This document shows, one piece after another, positions 3,112-58,241 of a stretch of 64,000 nucleotides of DNA. Made by a program: the position numbers and the translations under genes. Position 1 is the first letter of the stretch; the number at the start of each line of letters is the position of its first letter. Under the pieces are notes generated by a model. That model had not been told where the DNA came from. It saw only the letters and a program-made list of their open reading frames with translations, and searched no databases. Location of the stretch: contig NZ_AP014564.1 in NCBI RefSeq assembly GCF_002369955.1, positions 683,097-747,096 of the forward strand, read 5' to 3'. This stretch comes from Ichthyobacterium seriolicida (GTDB lineage Bacteria > Bacteroidota > Bacteroidia > Flavobacteriales > Ichthyobacteriaceae).

Positions 3112-4206
3112 ATGTTTAAAAACCTTTTATCACTACTAACCCTTGGTCTGGTAGTTTTCTCTTGTTCTAAATCGGATGAGGCATCCGAGAAAGCCCTAGA
3201 ACTAAAGATTAGTTCTGTGAAGTTTGAGAAGAGTAAGAATTTAAATGGAGATGATGTTTCTGAATTTTACGAAAAGTTATTTGTTACAACAACTCCCGCT
3301 AGAGCTAAAGGAAAAAATGTTGCTCCAGGTGCACCTACTAACGGATATCCGACTGAGTTTACAATCGCAGCTGCAAATATAGTAGGAGATAGTGTTATTA
3401 ATGTAGAACTCCCTTTTAATGCGAACTTTGAAGCTTTAAAAACTAATGCTACAGCTAAGGCTACTATTACTTTTAAATCTGCTGTTGAAGGCGTTACTTT
3501 AGGGAGGACTACTATTACAGGAACTAGTGCAGAAATCCCTTTTGAAATACCTACAGCAGAGCTTACTAAAGAGAAATTAGAAGCTGGATTTTTCAAAAAA
3601 GAACTCGTATTCTCTAAAGCTGGAGATACTTCCTCAGTAAAAAAATATACTGTGGTTGTTAAATTCTCTAATGATAAATCTGACGAATGTGAGATAAAAC
3701 AAAGGGGGTTTGGGTTTATAGTTGCTGATACTGGTGCTAATGCTAAAGCTTCATTTAATCAGACTGCTACTGCGCCTGCAGCTGGGACTAAGGTGTTTGC
3801 GCATTATGCTGCTGGTAATAGTAGTAAGAACGGTGATAGCGCTGCTAATGCGATAGAGTTTGAGCTTAGGAAAGGGAAAGCTAGTACTGCATATCCTGCA
3901 GGTGGGGAGCTTGATACTGCTGGAGTTGATTCTACAAAGTACTTCAAAGCAGATGCGTTAATACTGCCTGATGGGGCTTATATTGAGGTTGATGACACTC
4001 CTGGCTCTACTGCTAATACTGCTGCTGATGTTAATCCAATTACTGGAAAGAAGAAATCTAATGCTGCCACTGCAGCTAACACTACAGATCTTAAAGGGGG
4101 TGCTAGTAACTCAACCCCTCAGAGTTATACATTCCGAGTGGTAGCTCAAGATGGAACGACTAAAAAGCATTATAAGTTAACTATTAATGCAACTGCACCT
4201 TCTTAG
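3112..4206 (+). CDS. Surface-type lipoprotein, copy 2 of a tandem pair
   Basis: This 364-residue paralogue of the product of 1460-2536 has the same signal peptide and lipobox (Cys18). The first 215 or so residues differ at only about a dozen positions. The C-terminal third keeps the same blocks (FELRKGK, LPDGAYIEVD, NTAADVNPITG, YTFRVVAQDG) but differs strongly between them, with several whole-codon indels (for example GNSSKNGDSAANAIE in place of TPSNGDKDGSQTKPFE). The duplicated unit includes about 200 bp of leader and the terminator, so the duplication is recent while the C-terminal loops have already diverged. The pattern suggests a surface antigen with variable loops; the function is unknown. 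Confidence 0.85.
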   Translation: MFKNLLSLLTLGLVVFSCSKSDEASEKALELKISSVKFEKSKNLNGDDVSEFYEKLFVTTTPARAKGKNVAPGAPTNGYPTEFTIAAANIVGDSVINVELPFNANFEALKTNATAKATITFKSAVEGVTLGRTTITGTSAEIPFEIPTAELTKEKLEAGFFKKELVFSKAGDTSSVKKYTVVVKFSNDKSDECEIKQRGFGFIVADTGANAKASFNQTATAPAAGTKVFAHYAAGNSSKNGDSAANAIEFELRKGKASTAYPAGGELDTAGVDSTKYFKADALILPDGAYIEVDDTPGSTANTAADVNPITGKKKSNAATAANTTDLKGGASNSTPQSYTFRVVAQDGTTKKHYKLTINATAPS

Positions 4207-29592: not shown

Positions 29593-30156
29593 TTAATTCT
29601 TAATTATCTTAAACGATGCAGATAAGGTGTTTCCGTCGGTTATATGCATAATATACCCTGCAGTTGGAAAATCTTGTAAATCTACTTGAGTTAGATTTGA
29701 AGTTATATCTTTATTCAAAAGTAGTTTTCCGTCATAGCTATATATCTTGTATTTAATCCTTTGGCTGAGTAAAGTCTCCATATCTCCCTCTGAGTTAATT
29801 CCATCTATTTCTATTGTCAGAAGATCAACAACAGGATTAGGATAGACTTTGAAGTTTCCTTCTGGAAAGGTTGGTTTGATAAGTTCATCGTCAGATATAG
29901 GATCATCTCCTAGAATCTCAAATAATTCAAAAGAATGTTGAATACCTTCGTGTACGGTAGTGCCATCTTCCCCTTCAAGGGTATTAAAGAACAGTTGTCC
30001 TAGGCTATAACTAAAGCTGCCAGCAGAGTTGCTAGCTGTACCTCCCGACGAATTGAATGATTGCTGAGCTCTAGATGATAAAGAGCAAGACAATAATACT
30101 ACAAGACAAGAAATAAGAAACCTATTAGGGATAACATTAACTTTTTGTAAGAACAT
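29593..30156 (-). CDS. Secreted protein with T9SS type A sorting domain
   Basis: This 187-residue protein has a signal peptide (cleavage after SSRAQ or so), then a Gly/Ser-rich stretch (QQSFNSSGGTASNSAGSFSY) and a typical type A C-terminal sorting domain from about residue 100: FKVYPNPVVDLLTIEI, the YKIYSYDGKLLL strand, DLQDFPTAGYIMHITDG and the terminal SASFKIIKN. It is therefore predicted to cross the outer membrane through the type IX secretion system. The cargo portion is tiny (about 75 residues) with no catalytic motif; the same short arrangement is common in flavobacterial proteins of unknown role. Confidence 0.9.
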   Translation of the reverse strand: MFLQKVNVIPNRFLISCLVVLLSCSLSSRAQQSFNSSGGTASNSAGSFSYSLGQLFFNTLEGEDGTTVHEGIQHSFELFEILGDDPISDDELIKPTFPEGNFKVYPNPVVDLLTIEIDGINSEGDMETLLSQRIKYKIYSYDGKLLLNKDITSNLTQVDLQDFPTAGYIMHITDGNTLSASFKIIKN

Positions 30157-51411: not shown

Positions 51412-51435
51412 ATTTTTTATATCTATATATGTTTC

Positions 51436-51557
51436 GGTTCAAGACAAACTTAAGGTAAATTTATATGCGTGTAAATCCTTATCTTATCTATGAAAAATGA
51501 GTATATAATTCGTTTGAGAATTTTTGAGGCAAAATTCAGGTCTATTTTACGGTTATT
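51436..51557 (+). mobile_element. IS1595-family remnant
   Basis: It begins with GGTTCAAGACAAACTTAAGG, nearly the terminal inverted repeat of the element at 52189-52928, and continues with the start of its transposase on the plus strand (MKNEYIIRLRIFEAKFRSIL, then RLF). Homology ends near 51557, so about 120 bp of the element survive. It abuts a fragment of the barrel gene. It probably marks the site of an IS-linked deletion. Confidence 0.85.
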
Positions 51558-51597
51558 TTGCAAGGTTATTACTGAGAATGTAAATTGAATTAAAAAT

Positions 51598-51681
51598 TTA
51601 GAAGTTGTAGGTAATTCCAAAAATTATATATGCTAGAGGTCCGTTATTTATTACTACCTCATCAATTCCATCCGATATAGT
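51598..51681 (-). pseudogene. C-terminal fragment of a second barrel gene copy
   Basis: The 27 codons and the stop read TISDGIDEVVINN then GPLAYIIFGITYNF, matching the last 27 residues of the protein at 52937-55525 (with D-to-E-type changes only at K/E, K/G and D/N). The rest of this copy has been lost. It shows that the barrel and peptide genes were once duplicated as a unit. Confidence 0.9.
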
Positions 51682-51892
51682 GTATAGAATAAGATGAATA
51701 TTAGCATATGCCTCTTAAGATATAGTTATTTAAAGACTTTCAAATGTTTTCGTTAAGCGATTCTATTAATTTTACTAGGGTTACCAGAGATTTTTTTTGG
51801 ATTTGATAAAATTTTTGCAAAAAAAACGAACTTTATTGAAAATTATTTATATATTTCGGGCATGTTTATCGTTTAATTTAAAGAAACAAATT
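51678..51892 (+). repeat. Duplicated leader of the peptide gene, copy 1
   Basis: The sequence between the barrel fragment and the peptide gene is repeated at 55663-55878, with the identical core ATTTAAAGACTTTCAAATGT followed by TTTCGTTAAGCGATTCTATT. It carries the promoter and leader of the peptide gene; the likely -7 box is TATATTTC at 51850-51857, one base from TAnnTTTG. Confidence 0.85.
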
Positions 51893-52087
51893 ATGAAAAA
51901 ATTATTATTTCTCACAATTTCCTTAAGTACTTGTTTATTAACTTATGCTTATTCCTTTTCAAATTTTAATCAAGAAGAGGATACGGTGTATGTTTGTTCA
52001 AGTTCACGGAGCATATGTTATAAATCAGAGGGTGTAGTAGTTCGCGGAGATTTGAAAGCAATAGTAATAGATAAAGGTTCCCGTTAA
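51893..52087 (+). CDS. Small secreted cysteine-containing peptide
   Basis: This 64-residue predicted exported peptide has a signal peptide (MKKLLFLTISLSTCLLTYAY) followed by a short mature part with two cysteines (Cys35 and Cys42, in YVCSSSRSICYKSEG) that could form one disulfide, and a basic end. I know no exact family. In size, cysteines and neighbourhood (beta-propeller lipoprotein, MauE-like protein, GLPGLI protein) it is like the NVEALA-type peptides of Bacteroides, but it lacks the NVEALA motif. ATG 51893 is chosen because the signal begins there and a promoter box lies 36 nt upstream. A broken second copy lies at 55879. Confidence 0.75.
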   Translation: MKKLLFLTISLSTCLLTYAYSFSNFNQEEDTVYVCSSSRSICYKSEGVVVRGDLKAIVIDKGSR

Positions 52088-52131
52088 TTGAAAAGAAGGA
52101 TATGTAAACTTATTCTACGCTTCTTGCCAAT

Positions 52132-52168
52132 AAAAACTGTTTCTGTTATGTAGAAGCAGTTTTTGTTG
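52132..52168 (+). terminator. Terminator of the peptide gene
   Basis: AAAAACTGTTTC and GAAGCAGTTTTT form a 12-bp stem with one G-T pair around TGTTATGTA. The counterpart after the broken copy (about 55978-56011) has a disrupted left arm. Confidence 0.75.
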
Positions 52169-52188
52169 GTTTAGTATTAATAGAATTC

Positions 52189-52928
52189 GGTTCAAGACAA
52201 CTTAAGGGGATTTTTTCTTAGCCATTTTGACAGATAAGAATACAAATTTTCATTGCGATAATTAAATCTCCATTCACACTCTTTTAGGTGATAATAAAAA
52301 TTGTGTTTATGGACTCCTCTAAATCTGGATAATCGAACTTTACATAGTCCCCAAAAACTCTCAATTCCATTAATGTGATTTACTCCTTTAGTAAATTCAT
52401 TTTCACTATGTTTTACTCTATAATGCTTCTTATAACCATAGTTTACCAAGCTGTCATAAGACTTAAAACCATCAGTATAAATTGTACTTTCTTTACTTGC
52501 TCTGCTCTTTATAATAGGCATTATTACTTATTATGAGCAGTTTTTTACAATTTGTGTATAAACTTTTCCTTCTCTCTTTAACATGCCAAATACAGGAACT
52601 TTTCCTCCTGATCCTCGTCCCCTTTTTCCCCTAGCTCGTTTAGCTCCAAAATAACTCTCATCTAATTCTATTTCCCCTTGATTAAAGAGGCTTTCTTCTT
52701 CGCATTTTTGAGCAATTAACAAACGTAATCTGTCAAAAATTTTGTTGATAGTATAACGGTTTACATCAGTCAATTTACTAACTTTTTTCGCTTGAATATC
52801 TAGGTGAGATAACCGTAAAATAGACATGAATTTTGCCTCAGAAATTCTCAAACGGATTATATGCTCATTTTTCATAGATAGGATAAGGGTTTGCACACAT
52901 ATAAACTTGCCTTAAGTTGTCTTGAACC
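52189..52928 (-). mobile_element. IS1595-family insertion sequence
   Basis: This 740-bp element has perfect 19-bp terminal inverted repeats (GGTTCAAGACAACTTAAGG at both ends). It carries a single transposase frame on the minus strand that is interrupted by two stops. No 8-bp target duplication is seen (TAGAATTC on the left, TTAAAAAT on the right), which suggests rearrangement after insertion. Its right end lies 8 bp from the stop codon of the barrel gene. A partial copy in opposite orientation lies at 51436. Confidence 0.92.
52192..52896 (-). pseudogene. IS1595 transposase with two in-frame stops
   Basis: This 235-codon DDE transposase reading frame is interrupted by TAA TAA at 52528-52533; both halves stay in the same frame, so the lesion is not a frameshift. 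The first half has MKNEHIIRLRISEAKF, an HTH-like SKLTDVNRYTINKIFDRL and the first catalytic Asp in ELDESYFGAKR (ISXO2-like domain). The second half has the second Asp in IYTDGFKSYD and the Glu in NGIESFWGLCKVRL. No N-terminal zinc ribbon is present. The original start is probably the ATG of MKNEH. It is likely inactive unless another copy supplies transposase. Confidence 0.88.
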
Positions 52929-52936
52929 TTAAAAAT

Positions 52937-55525
52937 TTAGAAGTCGTAGGTAATTCCAAAAATTATATATGCTAGAGGTTTGTTATTTATTACTACCTTA
53001 TCAATTCCATCCGATATAGTTAGACGAGATTTATACTGAAAATTATCATATATAGAGAAAAGTTGCCCAAAATTCCTGGAAGAAATACTAAAGGTTATTT
53101 TTTCGATTTTGTAAGAAAGAGATACGTTTATCTCTTGTGTGTTGTAAATCTTGTTATTTATTAACCTATTGTTGTACAGTAAAGTCATTTTTCCATTCAA
53201 ATTCTCATTCTTAAAAAGAATTGAAAAGGAACTTTTTATAACTCTATTGTATATATAGCTATCATGTGTTTTTCTCGTTAATTTATTATATCCAAAAGAA
53301 AGACCAAAGGATGTTTTGAAATTTATTAAATGATCGGAAAGAGTTTCTATCTTAAATTTAGGATAAAGAGCCACTTCATTTTGGGACACTTTTTTTTCAT
53401 TTATCATAGATGGATAGAATGAACTACTAGCATTTATTTTCAAATAAAGTTTTACAGGATAAGTTATTTGAAACAAAGTTTTACTAAAATCAGAATAAAC
53501 AGTGTATGTACTTCGAGAATCTGCAGTGAAAAGCCTAAACTTGAAGAAATTTTCTTCTATGTCTAAAAGAGTTCTAGATAGATAGTTTTTATGCTTAGAG
53601 TAACTTGAGCCTATAGAAAATGACTCTCCGTAGAAAAGATTATTGTAACTGTAATAGATATTTCCATTATTTGACTCGCTGTATTCAATTGGATAATCTT
53701 CTCTTCCAATTAATATTATATTACTACTACTAGTTCTATTTATACCTGATTCTAAATTATTAATAGATTCACTTCTATTGAAAGTACAAACAATACTATG
53801 ATTTCCTTTTTCATGCTTCACATAAAATTGAATAGGGATAAATAAAGAGTTATTCTCTTTGTCAAGAGAGAGCTTGTTGGTATTTCTCGCCAGAGAAAAG
53901 GACGCGTCATAACTTATATTTTCAAGTATTTCTCCCCATATTTTTATACCTATACTAGAATTATTAATTCTTCTTTTTATGGAATTATTATCATTTATTT
54001 TCTCTTTCAAATATTCATTAGAAAAAGTATAATCCGAAACTATGGAATATTCAAAATCTTCGTTCAATTTATGATTAAAAGACAAAGAGGGCTCAATGAT
54101 GTTTCTTTTAAAATTAAAATCTTGATTATTGTTTGATAGAATATCATCAATAGTGTATTTATTATTCATAGAGTCGTTTTCCATTTTCATATATACGTTA
54201 GCTTTTAGGATTATATTCTTAGCTGTTTTCATTGTTAATACCGAGTTATTGAAAATGGAAAATACTCTATTAGAACTGTAGAACTCAGTGTAATTATCGC
54301 TAAAACTTTCATTTTTAAAGAGAGTATTTTTTATGTTGTTGTCATAGTTATTATCTGCAAAGTATATTCCTACGAGATTAGATGCGATTATTTTTCTAGA
54401 TAATTTATAGTCTATAGAGGTTCTTCCTAAAACTGAATTTCCATTTGAGGTCATCTCATTATAACTCTTTGACAAAGCTTTATTTTCAAGAGTGTTGATA
54501 TTTTCGTAAATAGTTTTAACCTTAGAGGGTTTGATATAATAATATACGCTAGAGTGTCTTAATTTTTCCATAGTATTTCTCAAGGTTAGGTTAGAAATGC
54601 TAAAAAAATAATTCTTAACCTGTTTTTGCAATGAGATTATTTTACTGAGCTCGGCGATCTCATAAGGAGAAAAAGAACTATGCCGGCCAAAAATATTGCC
54701 GAGTTCTATGTTGCTGATACTGGTACTTATTATATTATTCGTGTTGTTTGTGACAAAAGCATTTGTGTTTTCTGAGAATAAAAACCCGTCTCCTTTTAAT
54801 TGGTACTTGTTGTGATAGCCATAATTTGCGGAAACAGATCCAGTAAATACATTTTTAAAACTCTCCTTAGTATTTAAGTTTAAAACGGTTTCTCCTACTT
54901 CATCAAAACTGATATAAAAATCGTCTTTGTAATCATCTATTACCTGAATATTCTTTATCATTCTCTTTTTTACACTTTTTAATGCTAGTTCATTTTGGTT
55001 GACAAAAGCTTCTTTATTGTTTATTAAAATTTTGTCTATATTTTTCCCTTTGTAAATTATAACTCCACTGTCATCGATTGCAAGGTTTGGATTTTTTTCT
55101 AAAATAGTTTTTAAGTCATCGGATTCTTGTATATTTAGCTTGCTTAGATCAAGTGTATGAGTTCCTTTTTTATCAGATGTGACTACAATTTCTTCTAAGT
55201 TGAGAGTGTTGTTTTCTAAGATAAAATCTATAATAATCTCTTCTTTTTCCAAATCTTTTTTTGAGAAAACCTTTGTCTTTTCTAAAAAAGAAACATGTCT
55301 AACTACCAATCTATATTCTATTTTCAAAGAGTCTTTGATTTCAAAACTACCCTTTTTGTCAGAAGTGGTATACGAAATTATATCATCTTTATCGCTATAC
55401 AACACAAGTGTTGCTCCTCCTATCTCTTGATTTTTTTTATCATAGACATGTCCTTTTAAAATTCTAGTTTGAGAATAAATAGATGTTGATAATAACAGGC
55501 ATGAGATGATGTTTTTAAAAGTCAT
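52937..55525 (-). CDS. TonB-receptor-like barrel with carboxypeptidase regulatory domain
   Basis: This 862-residue outer-membrane protein has a signal peptide (TSIYS), an Ig-like CarboxypepD_reg domain (RILKGHVYDKKNQEIGGATL through VVRHVSFLEK), a plug-like segment with LEEIVVTSDKKGTHTLDLSK and DDLKTILEKNPNLAIDDSG, and a long barrel region (from about residue 230) ending in GITYDF. It lacks a clear TonB box and the full ligand-receptor signatures. Proteins of this build stand beside GLPGLI-family genes in many Flavobacteriia, as here. A role in moving the nearby secreted peptide across the outer membrane is an inference. It is divergent from the propeller-MauE-GLPGLI operon. Confidence 0.8.
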   Translation of the reverse strand: MTFKNIISCLLLSTSIYSQTRILKGHVYDKKNQEIGGATLVLYSDKDDIISYTTSDKKGSFEIKDSLKIEYRLVVRHVSFLEKTKVFSKKDLEKEEIIIDFILENNTLNLEEIVVTSDKKGTHTLDLSKLNIQESDDLKTILEKNPNLAIDDSGVIIYKGKNIDKILINNKEAFVNQNELALKSVKKRMIKNIQVIDDYKDDFYISFDEVGETVLNLNTKESFKNVFTGSVSANYGYHNKYQLKGDGFLFSENTNAFVTNNTNNIISTSISNIELGNIFGRHSSFSPYEIAELSKIISLQKQVKNYFFSISNLTLRNTMEKLRHSSVYYYIKPSKVKTIYENINTLENKALSKSYNEMTSNGNSVLGRTSIDYKLSRKIIASNLVGIYFADNNYDNNIKNTLFKNESFSDNYTEFYSSNRVFSIFNNSVLTMKTAKNIILKANVYMKMENDSMNNKYTIDDILSNNNQDFNFKRNIIEPSLSFNHKLNEDFEYSIVSDYTFSNEYLKEKINDNNSIKRRINNSSIGIKIWGEILENISYDASFSLARNTNKLSLDKENNSLFIPIQFYVKHEKGNHSIVCTFNRSESINNLESGINRTSSSNIILIGREDYPIEYSESNNGNIYYSYNNLFYGESFSIGSSYSKHKNYLSRTLLDIEENFFKFRLFTADSRSTYTVYSDFSKTLFQITYPVKLYLKINASSSFYPSMINEKKVSQNEVALYPKFKIETLSDHLINFKTSFGLSFGYNKLTRKTHDSYIYNRVIKSSFSILFKNENLNGKMTLLYNNRLINNKIYNTQEINVSLSYKIEKITFSISSRNFGQLFSIYDNFQYKSRLTISDGIDKVVINNKPLAYIIFGITYDF

Positions 55526-55662
55526 TTATTATTATGTTGATGTTATTTACTCAAGATAACCTCTTAAGGGAAATTAACATAAATACAAATAAAATCCTTA
55601 TGCTTGAAGTCAAAATCGCAAGATTGCAAAAAAAGTGTCAGAGTGTCGACAAATTACCTCGC

Positions 55663-55945
55663 TAGTATACAGAATAAGATGAGTATTAGCATATCTCTCT
55701 CAAGATACAATTATTTAAAGACTTTCAAATGTTTTCGTTAAGCGATTCTATTAATTTTACGAGGGTTGCCAGAGATTTTTTTAGACTTGATAAAATTTTT
55801 TCAAAAAAAACGAATGTTACTGAGTATTATTTATATGTTTGATAGCACGCCTATCATTTAATTTTAAAAGAATGAATTATGAAAAAAATATTACTTCTGA
55901 CAATTGTCTTGTGTGCTTCTGTGTTAATCTTATGTTTATTCTTCT
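55663..55945 (+). repeat. Duplicated peptide-gene leader, copy 2
   Basis: This copy of the block at 51678 continues into the start of the broken peptide gene. The -7 box here is TATGTTTG (55834-55841), an exact TAnnTTTG match, so the promoter may still drive the downstream operon. Identity is highest from about 55705 to 55800. The sequence 55526-55662 between the barrel start and this repeat shows no gene. Confidence 0.85.
55834..55841 (+). promoter_or_regulatory. Probable -7 box (TATGTTTG) of the propeller-MauE-GLPGLI unit
   Basis: It matches TAnnTTTG exactly in the duplicated leader, 37 nt upstream of the broken peptide start and 218 nt upstream of the propeller gene. Confidence 0.45.
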
Positions 55946-55971
55946 CCAAATTTTGTGAAGCATCTCGATAA
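55879..55971 (+). pseudogene. Truncated second copy of the secreted peptide gene
   Basis: The signal-peptide region is preserved (MKKILLLTIVLCASVLILCL and a few further residues), but the reading frame then reaches FFSKFCEASR and a stop after 30 codons; nothing corresponds to the mature part of the intact peptide at 51893. The sequence passes directly into the remnant of the terminator. It appears to have lost the mature part by deletion. Confidence 0.8.
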
Positions 55972-56059
55972 GCGTTAAAAACTATTTATGTTATGTAGAA
56001 GCAGTTTTTACTGGTTTAGTATTAATAAAATCCATCTAATTCCTTACAAATTATTATAA

Positions 56060-57109
56060 ATGTCTTATTTCAAATTCTATCTATTGGCTGTAACTGTTAT
56101 TTTTTTAAATTCATGTAAAAACGATAAATACAACAACGTGCGAGGATCTGTAATTTTTGATAATATAAAAAACAATAGTGATGTTTTTAAGATTTCAAAA
56201 GTAGGATCTAAAAATATTAAAGGGGATGTTATTAGATCAAATAATGAATATGTATACATCTATCACAATAAAAAAATTAATGTGTTTGATGAAAAACTAG
56301 ATTCTCTAAGAAGTATAAAGATAGACCAAAAAGTCTATAAATACTTACAGAGTTTTGAATCTATTTTTATTTTCGATAATTACTTATTCTTTTCAAAGAA
56401 TAGAACTTCTATTAGCATATACGATTTAAATAATGATACTCTTAAAGAGATAAGACCTCCAAAAGACTTTGTTATTGATGAGTTTGTAATTATTTCTCAA
56501 ACAGATATCTTGGTATTCGGAGCAAAAAGGAAACCTGATAGACATGAAGAAACAACTAACGGGTTTTATAGATTTTATCTTGACAAAGACTCTAACTCTC
56601 TTAATAATCCCGTGTTAATACAAGAGGTAGAATTAAATAAAAATTCAGTAGAAGCTTCTTTAAGGATGTTAGGGTATTTTTTTCTAAATGGAGAAAAGGT
56701 TACCTATAATAATTATTATTTGAATAAAACACACGTTTTGGATTTAGAAAAAGATAAACTAATAACTGTCACTAGCAGACATCCAGTTAGTGACCTTACA
56801 CTTGATAAGTTTAAATTTACAGGTGATCTATATTATAACTATATGTATAGAGAAAAGAAAGTGGGTGAAATTTACTTTGCTTCTATTGCGATAGATGACT
56901 ATTTATTAAACTTCAATGCTAACAAAAAGGGAATTTTATTAGAATTATACTCTGTTTTAAATAAAACACATATTGGTTCTTATCTATTTGATCAAACTAT
57001 TGATTTTTATAATTCAGGTTCTATAACTGTAAAAAAAATACATAAAGATTTATACCTTTTTTCTGATTATGACAACAAAATCCTATACAAGATTGAAAGA
57101 AAAAATTAA
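56060..57109 (+). CDS. Six-bladed beta-propeller lipoprotein (BF3164-like)
   Basis: The 349-residue predicted lipoprotein has lipobox VIFLNSC (Cys19) followed by KNDK. The rest forms repeated beta blades: NEYVYIYHNKKINVFDEKLD, DNYLFFSKNRTSISIYDLNN, DILVFGAKRKPDRHEETTNG and KKIHKDLYLFSDYDNKILYK. The layout fits the BF3164-like propeller lipoproteins that accompany NVEALA-type peptides in Bacteroides. The role is unknown; such propellers bind proteins or peptides. It lies directly downstream of the broken peptide gene, and its end overlaps the MauE-like gene by 41 bp. Confidence 0.75.
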   Translation: MSYFKFYLLAVTVIFLNSCKNDKYNNVRGSVIFDNIKNNSDVFKISKVGSKNIKGDVIRSNNEYVYIYHNKKINVFDEKLDSLRSIKIDQKVYKYLQSFESIFIFDNYLFFSKNRTSISIYDLNNDTLKEIRPPKDFVIDEFVIISQTDILVFGAKRKPDRHEETTNGFYRFYLDKDSNSLNNPVLIQEVELNKNSVEASLRMLGYFFLNGEKVTYNNYYLNKTHVLDLEKDKLITVTSRHPVSDLTLDKFKFTGDLYYNYMYREKKVGEIYFASIAIDDYLLNFNANKKGILLELYSVLNKTHIGSYLFDQTIDFYNSGSITVKKIHKDLYLFSDYDNKILYKIERKN

Positions 57110-57521
57110 AAAAACATATTCTCCACTTGTAGAGATATTGACATTAATTATTTTTTCCTATACGGCAGTTTTCAAAATATTGAATATACAAGGCTTCCAG
57201 CTTAATATAGTTAAAACAGGTATTTTTTATCCACAACTTATTCAACCTGTATCTTTTATAGTAATAGCAATAGAACTACTAGTTATATCCTTAATAGTGT
57301 TAAGACATAAAAAATCTATTCATGTTTCTTTATTATCTATGACAGCATTCACTTTTTACATAATTTTTGCGAAAATTATTGGTAAATTCTCCACATGTGG
57401 ATGTGGAGGCGTAATTTCTCAAATGACGTTTTTACAACATATAACTTTTAATTTAATAGTCATAACTATGCTATCCTTAACTTTTTTATTTAAGCGTAAA
57501 CGTAAATCTATTCATAAGTAA
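57069..57521 (+). CDS. MauE/DoxX-like redox-associated membrane protein
   Basis: This 150-residue protein has four transmembrane segments (about 19-37, 60-77, 87-105, 121-139). It has the MauE-type pattern: an N-terminal PLVEILTLIIFSYTAVFKIL and the motif FSTCGCGG with Cys110 and Cys112 at the membrane surface. Related proteins supply thiol-disulfide electrons to cysteine-containing exported proteins, which fits the disulfide-capable peptide nearby; the link is an inference. The start overlaps the propeller gene by 41 bp, and no later in-frame start exists before the first membrane span. Confidence 0.82.
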   Translation: MTTKSYTRLKEKIKKTYSPLVEILTLIIFSYTAVFKILNIQGFQLNIVKTGIFYPQLIQPVSFIVIAIELLVISLIVLRHKKSIHVSLLSMTAFTFYIIFAKIIGKFSTCGCGGVISQMTFLQHITFNLIVITMLSLTFLFKRKRKSIHK

Positions 57522-57527
57522 TCTTTT

Positions 57528-58241
57528 ATGAAAACACTCTTTATCCTACTAGTTATTTTTAATACTATTCTCTTTGAATCAAAGGGACAGGAAAAAAATA
57601 AACCAATTTTTAAAATTACTTACGAAAGTAGTCCGCTTACAGCAGCCGCCATTAAGAATTTAAAGAGTCAATTTAAAAATCTAGATATGTATGATTTCCT
57701 TGTTTCTGAAATAAAGAAAATTAAGTTTTTTTATTCTTTGTTTTACGATTCAAGGGAAAATACGTCTATCTATGCTCTAGATTCTATAAAACAGGGAGAA
57801 AGGTCTAAAGGTACATATAATGTTGTTTTTGCATACAAAAACAATAATACTCTTTATTCAAAAGAAAATATTTCCAATTCAGATGTTCATGTCCAAGATG
57901 ATGATTCTTTTTTAGAATGGGAAATAACCAAAGAAAGAAAGAGGATAAGTAATTACGAATGCATAAAAGCTTTCTTGAAAAAATACCCTGATCATATAGT
58001 TTGGTTTTCTCCTGAAATTCCTATAGGTATCGGACCATATATATATCATAATTTGCCTGGACTTGTATTAGAATCTGAAAATAAATCTTCATTAAATAAA
58101 TTGACATCTATATCACATGTGGAAAGCAGTATTTTTGAGGAAAAATTAGAAGAAATTAAAAAAAATATGATCAAAGAAAACACTGAAAATTTTAATTCCT
58201 TATTCTTAAAAAGAGATCTCATGAGAAGGAGAAATAAATAA
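57528..58241 (+). CDS. GLPGLI family exported protein
   Basis: The 237-residue protein has a signal peptide (MKTLFILLVIFNTILFESKG, cleaved about Gly20/Gln21). The family signature is present as WFSPEIPIGIGPYIYHN followed by LPGLVLE (about 158-172). The family is Bacteroidetes-specific and of unknown function, and is regularly encoded beside TonB-receptor-like barrels with a regulatory domain, as here. It is the last gene of the propeller-MauE-GLPGLI operon (6-bp gap to MauE). The A-rich tail ends in LKRDLMRRRNK. Confidence 0.9.
   Translation: MKTLFILLVIFNTILFESKGQEKNKPIFKITYESSPLTAAAIKNLKSQFKNLDMYDFLVSEIKKIKFFYSLFYDSRENTSIYALDSIKQGERSKGTYNVVFAYKNNNTLYSKENISNSDVHVQDDDSFLEWEITKERKRISNYECIKAFLKKYPDHIVWFSPEIPIGIGPYIYHNLPGLVLESENKSSLNKLTSISHVESSIFEEKLEEIKKNMIKENTENFNSLFLKRDLMRRRNK

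Follow-up and report, generated by a model that had tools for sequence, protein, structure and literature searches.

What do five neighbouring genes do together when they encode a small exported peptide, an outer-membrane barrel, a propeller-like lipoprotein, a MauE-family membrane protein and a GLPGLI-family protein? The question is raised by a 64,000-nucleotide stretch of Ichthyobacterium seriolicida DNA (NZ_AP014564.1, positions 683,097 to 747,096; hereafter the window), taken from a single-contig Bacteroidota genome of 1.92 Mb. A preliminary description, made from the sequence alone, had placed the five genes within 51436-58241 and proposed that they make, oxidise and export a disulfide-containing peptide. 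All five genes are present at the positions it gave. Our answer is a tentative one: it is quite possible, at slightly under an even chance, that the locus is an exported-peptide system, in which a module with MauE-linked thiol chemistry is coupled to a barrel/GLPGLI pair handling the peptide at the outer membrane.

Gene content of the locus

The peptide gene (51893-52087, + strand) encodes 64 residues (MKKLLFLTISLSTCLLTYAYSFSNFNQEEDTVYVCSSSRSICYKSEGVVVRGDLKAIVIDKGSR) and, as had been described, has a signal-peptide-like N-terminus and two cysteines in its mature part, spaced C-x6-C. The peptide matched no Pfam or NCBIfam model, and comparison with DUF6520 (PF20130) and NVEALA (PF14055) gave no match up to an E-value of 10. 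Three further genes lie on the same strand: those for the lipoprotein (349 residues, 56060-57109), the MauE-family protein (150 residues, 57069-57521) and the GLPGLI protein (237 residues with a signal peptide, 57528-58241). The first two overlap by 41 nucleotides (nt) and 6 nt separate the last two, so that a single operon, as claimed earlier, is a reasonable reading. The membrane protein, previously picked out for its CGC, carries the motif CGCGG and matches MauE (PF07291, 2.3e-19, 70.4 bits against a cut-off of 27). The GLPGLI assignment was likewise upheld (TIGR01200, 2.6e-29, 102.6 bits against a cut-off of 50), this being the sole copy in the genome.

The barrel gene (52937-55525, - strand) encodes 862 residues with a signal peptide. 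The N-terminal CarboxypepD_reg domain attributed to it was recovered with PF13715 (1.9e-9) and PF13620 (7.9e-8); the Plug and barrel Pfam models gave no match to this protein. Residues 7-249 matched the plug-containing barrel of another locus, L171, in an hhalign profile comparison, which suggests a plug-like region.

An exported peptide with cysteines recurs beside MauE

In 22 of 29 MauE-relative loci a peptide detector found, on the same strand and within 1.4 kb, an exported peptide carrying at least two cysteines. The opposite strand of these loci, which served as the control in place of random loci, gave 1 of 29 (Fisher 1e-8). One more locus, L044, has such a peptide by reading rather than by the detector count. 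A second search returned 11 further standalone MauE loci, previously unread, and all 11 had an exported peptide of this kind, again on the same strand; this count was made by inspection, with no formal control, and leaves out a partial standalone match (G002:C4). Chance adjacency of peptide and MauE is ruled out by these counts. A part in forming disulfides has been suggested speculatively for MauE, which also occurs in candidate clusters for ribosomally synthesized and post-translationally modified peptides (PMC7794033).

Propeller genes share this neighbourhood. The order is MauE-propeller-DUF6520 peptide in L064 and MauE-propeller-three peptides in L043/L171; the window MauE is 31% identical to that of L043 (E 3e-21). 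Many Flavobacterium-type genomes encode proteins of ~510 residues in which MauE is fused to a propeller domain. A propeller profile matches the C-terminal part of these fusions (best 8e-45), and in profile comparison the propellers from fusions and those from split genes match each other at 96%. In L171 the three tandem peptides are followed by a CarboxypepD_reg/Plug/OMP_b-brl_3 protein, next to apparent mobilisation genes; L251 has two tandem peptides.

The lipoprotein of the window has been described as a beta-propeller. It has a lipobox (LNSC) but gave no meaningful family match, and none to PF17170 (DUF5128 / 6-bladed propeller lipoproteins). Beta-propellers were the top Foldseek matches, at a TM-score of at most 0.36, of an AlphaFold model with pLDDT 55 and pTM 0.56; a single-sequence model (pLDDT 39) was useless. 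The protein has the same size and position as the propellers adjoining MauE in L063 and L043. Profile comparison with related propellers gave hhalign probabilities of 0.1-1, and there was no profile match to NVEALA-linked propellers. A search with the protein returned the protein itself and one weak single-sequence match, to a BNR-repeat-like protein judged unrelated. We term it beta-propeller-like from its size, position, lipobox and low-confidence fold.

Six peptides from other loci were compared with that of the window. Alignment with the three L171 peptides revealed a common C-x6-C followed by G-x-hydrophobic-hydrophobic-x-G, with shuffle p values of about 0.04, 0.025 and 0.0065, which are not independent tests because the three are mutual paralogues. 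The resemblance is taken as a lead.

Relatives of the barrel are paired with GLPGLI in peptide operons

A scan for the barrel across GTDB genomes returned 14 loci, 12 of which (L072-L083) hold full-length relatives with 28-38% identity. GLPGLI is adjacent in 12 of 12, and in 11 (L072-L082) a gene of about 300 codons, encoding an SdpB-like protein, precedes the barrel. Eight of these 11 proteins were scanned and all eight matched TIGR04033 (best 1e-14), with displayed scores well below the curated cut-off. Exported peptides are found in 11 of the 12 loci, nine by the detector and two (L072 and L079) by reading gaps; the flank of L083 (Tannerellaceae, 28% identity) holds neither an SdpB-like gene nor a peptide. 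Most peptides of the SdpB-like operons lack cysteine, indicating that the barrel and GLPGLI are not tied to disulfides. With the same barrel type accompanying mostly cysteine-less peptides, its role seems to be distinct from the redox one.

Several other features of these operons were recorded. A gene of ~192 codons beside the SdpB-like gene had no Pfam match, and because of this we leave it unnamed rather than call it SdpA. A gene of ~226 codons (4309-4989 in L073, and relatives) heads several of the operons and matches the acyltransferase model TIGR03694 weakly (18 bits; cut-off 112). In the L073-L082 peptides the signal peptide is followed by residues such as VSMDDVNVTTVENLDN, which by eye resemble the NVEALA leader VDLSALALDNVEALAN; the Pfam NVEALA model did not match the two SdpB-like operon peptides scanned.

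The association was also approached from GLPGLI, in other Bacteroidota. A cysteine-bearing exported peptide lies directly upstream of GLPGLI in 8 of 55 loci and of none of 108 control genes (p 1e-4). This is the upstream side of the second of two runs, for which the overlap rule had been loosened; the earlier, stricter run gave 7 of 55 as compared with 2 of 210 control genes (p 3e-4). Counting either side, the second run gave 9 of 55 loci, and 6 of 108 controls had such a peptide downstream. The peptide link of GLPGLI thus holds for a subset only, and GLPGLI as an exclusive peptide partner is ruled out. One locus (L139, genome G063) has five GLPGLI genes and a single barrel gene, and interspersed among them are four distinct exported peptides, each containing 2-3 cysteines.

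The peptide is much more tightly associated with MauE than with GLPGLI. Together with the fusions, which tie the propeller to the inner-membrane MauE, this is what would be expected if nothing were secreted and the peptide stayed in the envelope, where it would be a small partner of the propeller/MauE unit with a structural or regulatory task, as substrate, subunit or redox sensor. The tandem, diverging peptides (three in L171, two in L251, four in L139) look rather like secreted, variable products, and we regard an envelope-bound peptide as somewhat unlikely.

IS element, duplication and history of the locus

Several features had escaped the preliminary description: an IS1595-type element, a partial duplication (51433-52186), a decayed peptide gene (55879-55971) and a hairpin. 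From left to right, the locus consists of an IS1595 remnant, a 92-nt barrel remnant, the peptide gene (+), the IS1595-family element, the barrel gene (-), the decayed peptide gene (+) and the propeller/MauE/GLPGLI genes (+). An ABC-F gene and uvrA bound it, and its genes have a G+C content of 25-31% as compared with 32.5% for the whole window. No SdpB-kind open reading frame (ORF) is present in the ORF list between 51365 and 59225.

The IS1595-family element (52187-52930, - strand) has inverted termini (GGTTCAAGACAACTTAAG) and a transposase split into two pieces (52192-52521 and 52531-52896), both matching NF033547 / PF12762. The genome holds 51 matches to it, about 11 near full length and the rest fragments; the other near-full-length copies are 91-93% identical to 52187-52930. 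Behind the intact peptide gene, a 20-bp hairpin (52126-52170, + strand) whose 3' side is rich in U resembles a terminator or attenuator (-24.8 kcal/mol, z -8.7, equalled by 0 of 200 shuffles); the hairpin behind the decayed peptide copy has itself decayed.

A second, incomplete copy of the IS-barrel-peptide region occupies 51433-52186. It includes a remnant of a second IS copy (51436-51557, + strand, inverted relative to the complete copy; 110-nt arms 91% complementary), within which 51447-51556 is an inverted repeat of the IS end. A remnant of the 3' end of a second barrel gene follows (51590-51681, - strand), 96% identical in nucleotides to 52929-53020 and 72% identical to the barrel C-terminus. 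It joins the region upstream of the peptide gene through a microhomology of 4 nt (TAGT). That upstream region (51678-51892, + strand) has its other copy from 55663 on, upstream of the decayed peptide gene; 51678-51825 matches 55663-55810 over 148 nt (86% identity, spacing 3985), and these are the only two copies in the genome. The decayed gene (MKKILLLTIVLCASVLILCLFFSKFCEASR; 55879-55971, + strand) retains the leader in an alignment of the two copies, the mature part being gone.

In the simplest account of these repeats, an IS-barrel-peptide block was duplicated with the aid of the multicopy IS; most of one barrel would then have been lost at the TAGT microhomology, and the peptide of the other copy would have lost its mature part. 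The intact peptide gene is now ~4 kb from the propeller gene, which the decayed copy directly precedes. Because the repeats and the decayed copy place a peptide gene there, the ancestral order was probably barrel / peptide-propeller-MauE-GLPGLI, with the peptide gene directly before the propeller gene. Peptide-propeller-MauE is also the order in L063.

A barrel flanked by IS1595 copies and a duplication is what might be seen if IS-driven rearrangement had joined a peptide-propeller-MauE unit to a functionally unrelated barrel-GLPGLI pair, and the absence of such a peptide from most GLPGLI loci, like the failure to find a second five-gene locus, fits two independent units. Yet GLPGLI begins only 6 nt after MauE, relatives of the barrel sit within peptide operons and L171 independently joins a barrel to the module. 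We consider two unrelated units quite unlikely.

Elsewhere in the window, 1460-2536 and 3112-4206 are a tandem pair of closely similar lipoprotein genes (MFKNLLSLLTLGLVVFSCSKSDE...), and the product of 29593-30156 has a C-terminus (VYPNPVVDLL...KIIKN) that by eye resembles a type 9 secretion cargo signal.

Comparison with known systems

Two kinds of MauE- or propeller-linked peptides are close to the window locus. DUF6520 peptides occur with MauE or MauE-propeller fusions and, like that of the window, are small, exported and furnished with spaced cysteines; the window differs in its shorter peptide, in having the propeller as a separate lipoprotein and in the added barrel and GLPGLI genes. NVEALA gave six matches in one sampled genome (G507), most of them adjoining a lipobox-bearing propeller-type gene, so that the NVEALA-propeller pairing named in the preliminary description was seen directly in one genome. 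There were no NVEALA matches in G000 or in the family of G461. The G507 arrangement shares with the window a small peptide gene beside a propeller-type protein of ~350 residues, whereas the window peptide lacks NVEALA and does not match that model, and no MauE-like CGG motif was seen beside the G507 genes.

The SDP-like (SdpB/TIGR04033) operons of Aquimarina, Kordia, Tenacibaculum and Lacinutrix have the same barrel type, an adjacent GLPGLI gene and exported peptides. In place of their SdpB-like gene, ABC transporter, PadR and DCC1, the window has MauE and the propeller. The window copy combines parts of two neighbouring kinds, the MauE/propeller peptides and the SdpB-like peptides.

The barrel also recalls Oar of Myxococcus xanthus, which is required for secretion of PopC (PMC6434023). 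The likeness lies in domain order alone, an N-terminal CarboxypepD_reg domain before a barrel; the cargo of Oar is a protease, while the candidate cargo here is a small peptide.

A model for the locus

In the exported-peptide model that we favour, the 64-residue precursor would be exported by Sec. In the periplasm, MauE (in the inner membrane) and the propeller protein would together control the thiol/disulfide state of the C-x6-C pair of the mature peptide. The Oar-like barrel (CarboxypepD_reg, plug and barrel) and the periplasmic GLPGLI protein would then move the peptide through the outer membrane, or display or sense it there. The model assumes that the peptide and propeller of the window correspond to those found in relatives, and that a disulfide may form. 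The direction of transport is probably outward, with the barrel/GLPGLI pair exporting the peptide. As to its role, for which signalling, competition and host interaction had been put forward, competition appears more likely than host interaction, to which nothing in this analysis pointed.

The barrel could instead be an importer, with the exported peptide acting as a metallophore-like carrier, or with the barrel taking up peptide made by the cell itself or by a competitor, and with GLPGLI binding the peptide in the periplasm. TonB-dependent barrels mostly import, a pair of cysteines could bind metal, and peptide and barrel genes can be neighbours. Against this, no metal-handling gene was seen in the ORF list of the locus, and the SdpB-like operons combine the same barrel type with mostly cysteine-less peptides. 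We consider import unlikely.

Several observations weigh against the exported-peptide model. The usual import by TonB-dependent barrels is one, and the scarcity of cysteine in the SdpB-like operon peptides is another. No second locus holding all five parts was found, and 47 of the 55 GLPGLI loci lack a peptide of this kind immediately upstream, so that GLPGLI and the barrel are not exclusive peptide partners. The detector behind the count of 22 of 29 was written after ten of those MauE loci had been read by eye, and was thus not blind to them. The window peptide resembles the L171 peptides only, and weakly (shuffle p 0.0065-0.04), showing no similarity beyond chance to the peptides of the L063, L064 and L065 loci in the same shuffle test. 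For the propeller, the fold model is of low confidence (pLDDT 55) and, held out of the profile, the protein matches neither the fused nor the split propellers of relatives. The earlier interpretation is partly supported. Peptides with a cysteine pair do recur near the same neighbours elsewhere, beside MauE, beside propellers and beside a minority of GLPGLI/barrel pairs, and the absence of such peptides, which would have refuted that interpretation, was not observed.

Implications

A broader proposal is that Bacteroidota possess a general outer-membrane exit for small peptides, in which an Oar-type barrel would pair with GLPGLI as its periplasmic adaptor and serve MauE/propeller (cysteine-bearing) and SdpB-like (mostly cysteine-less) modules interchangeably. 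We hold this to be rather unlikely at present. Full-text searches for NVEALA, DUF6520, GLPGLI and MauE with Bacteroidetes, which did not cover preprints and most subscription journals, found no paper on the module. The analysis points to a recurrent gene module that is apparently widespread and little studied. The GLPGLI, DUF6520 and NVEALA families, which have no assigned function in the libraries used, gain from it a shared and testable context of exported peptides with redox, propeller and outer-membrane partners, and the barrel/GLPGLI pair becomes a concrete candidate for the exit of peptides from a two-membrane cell.

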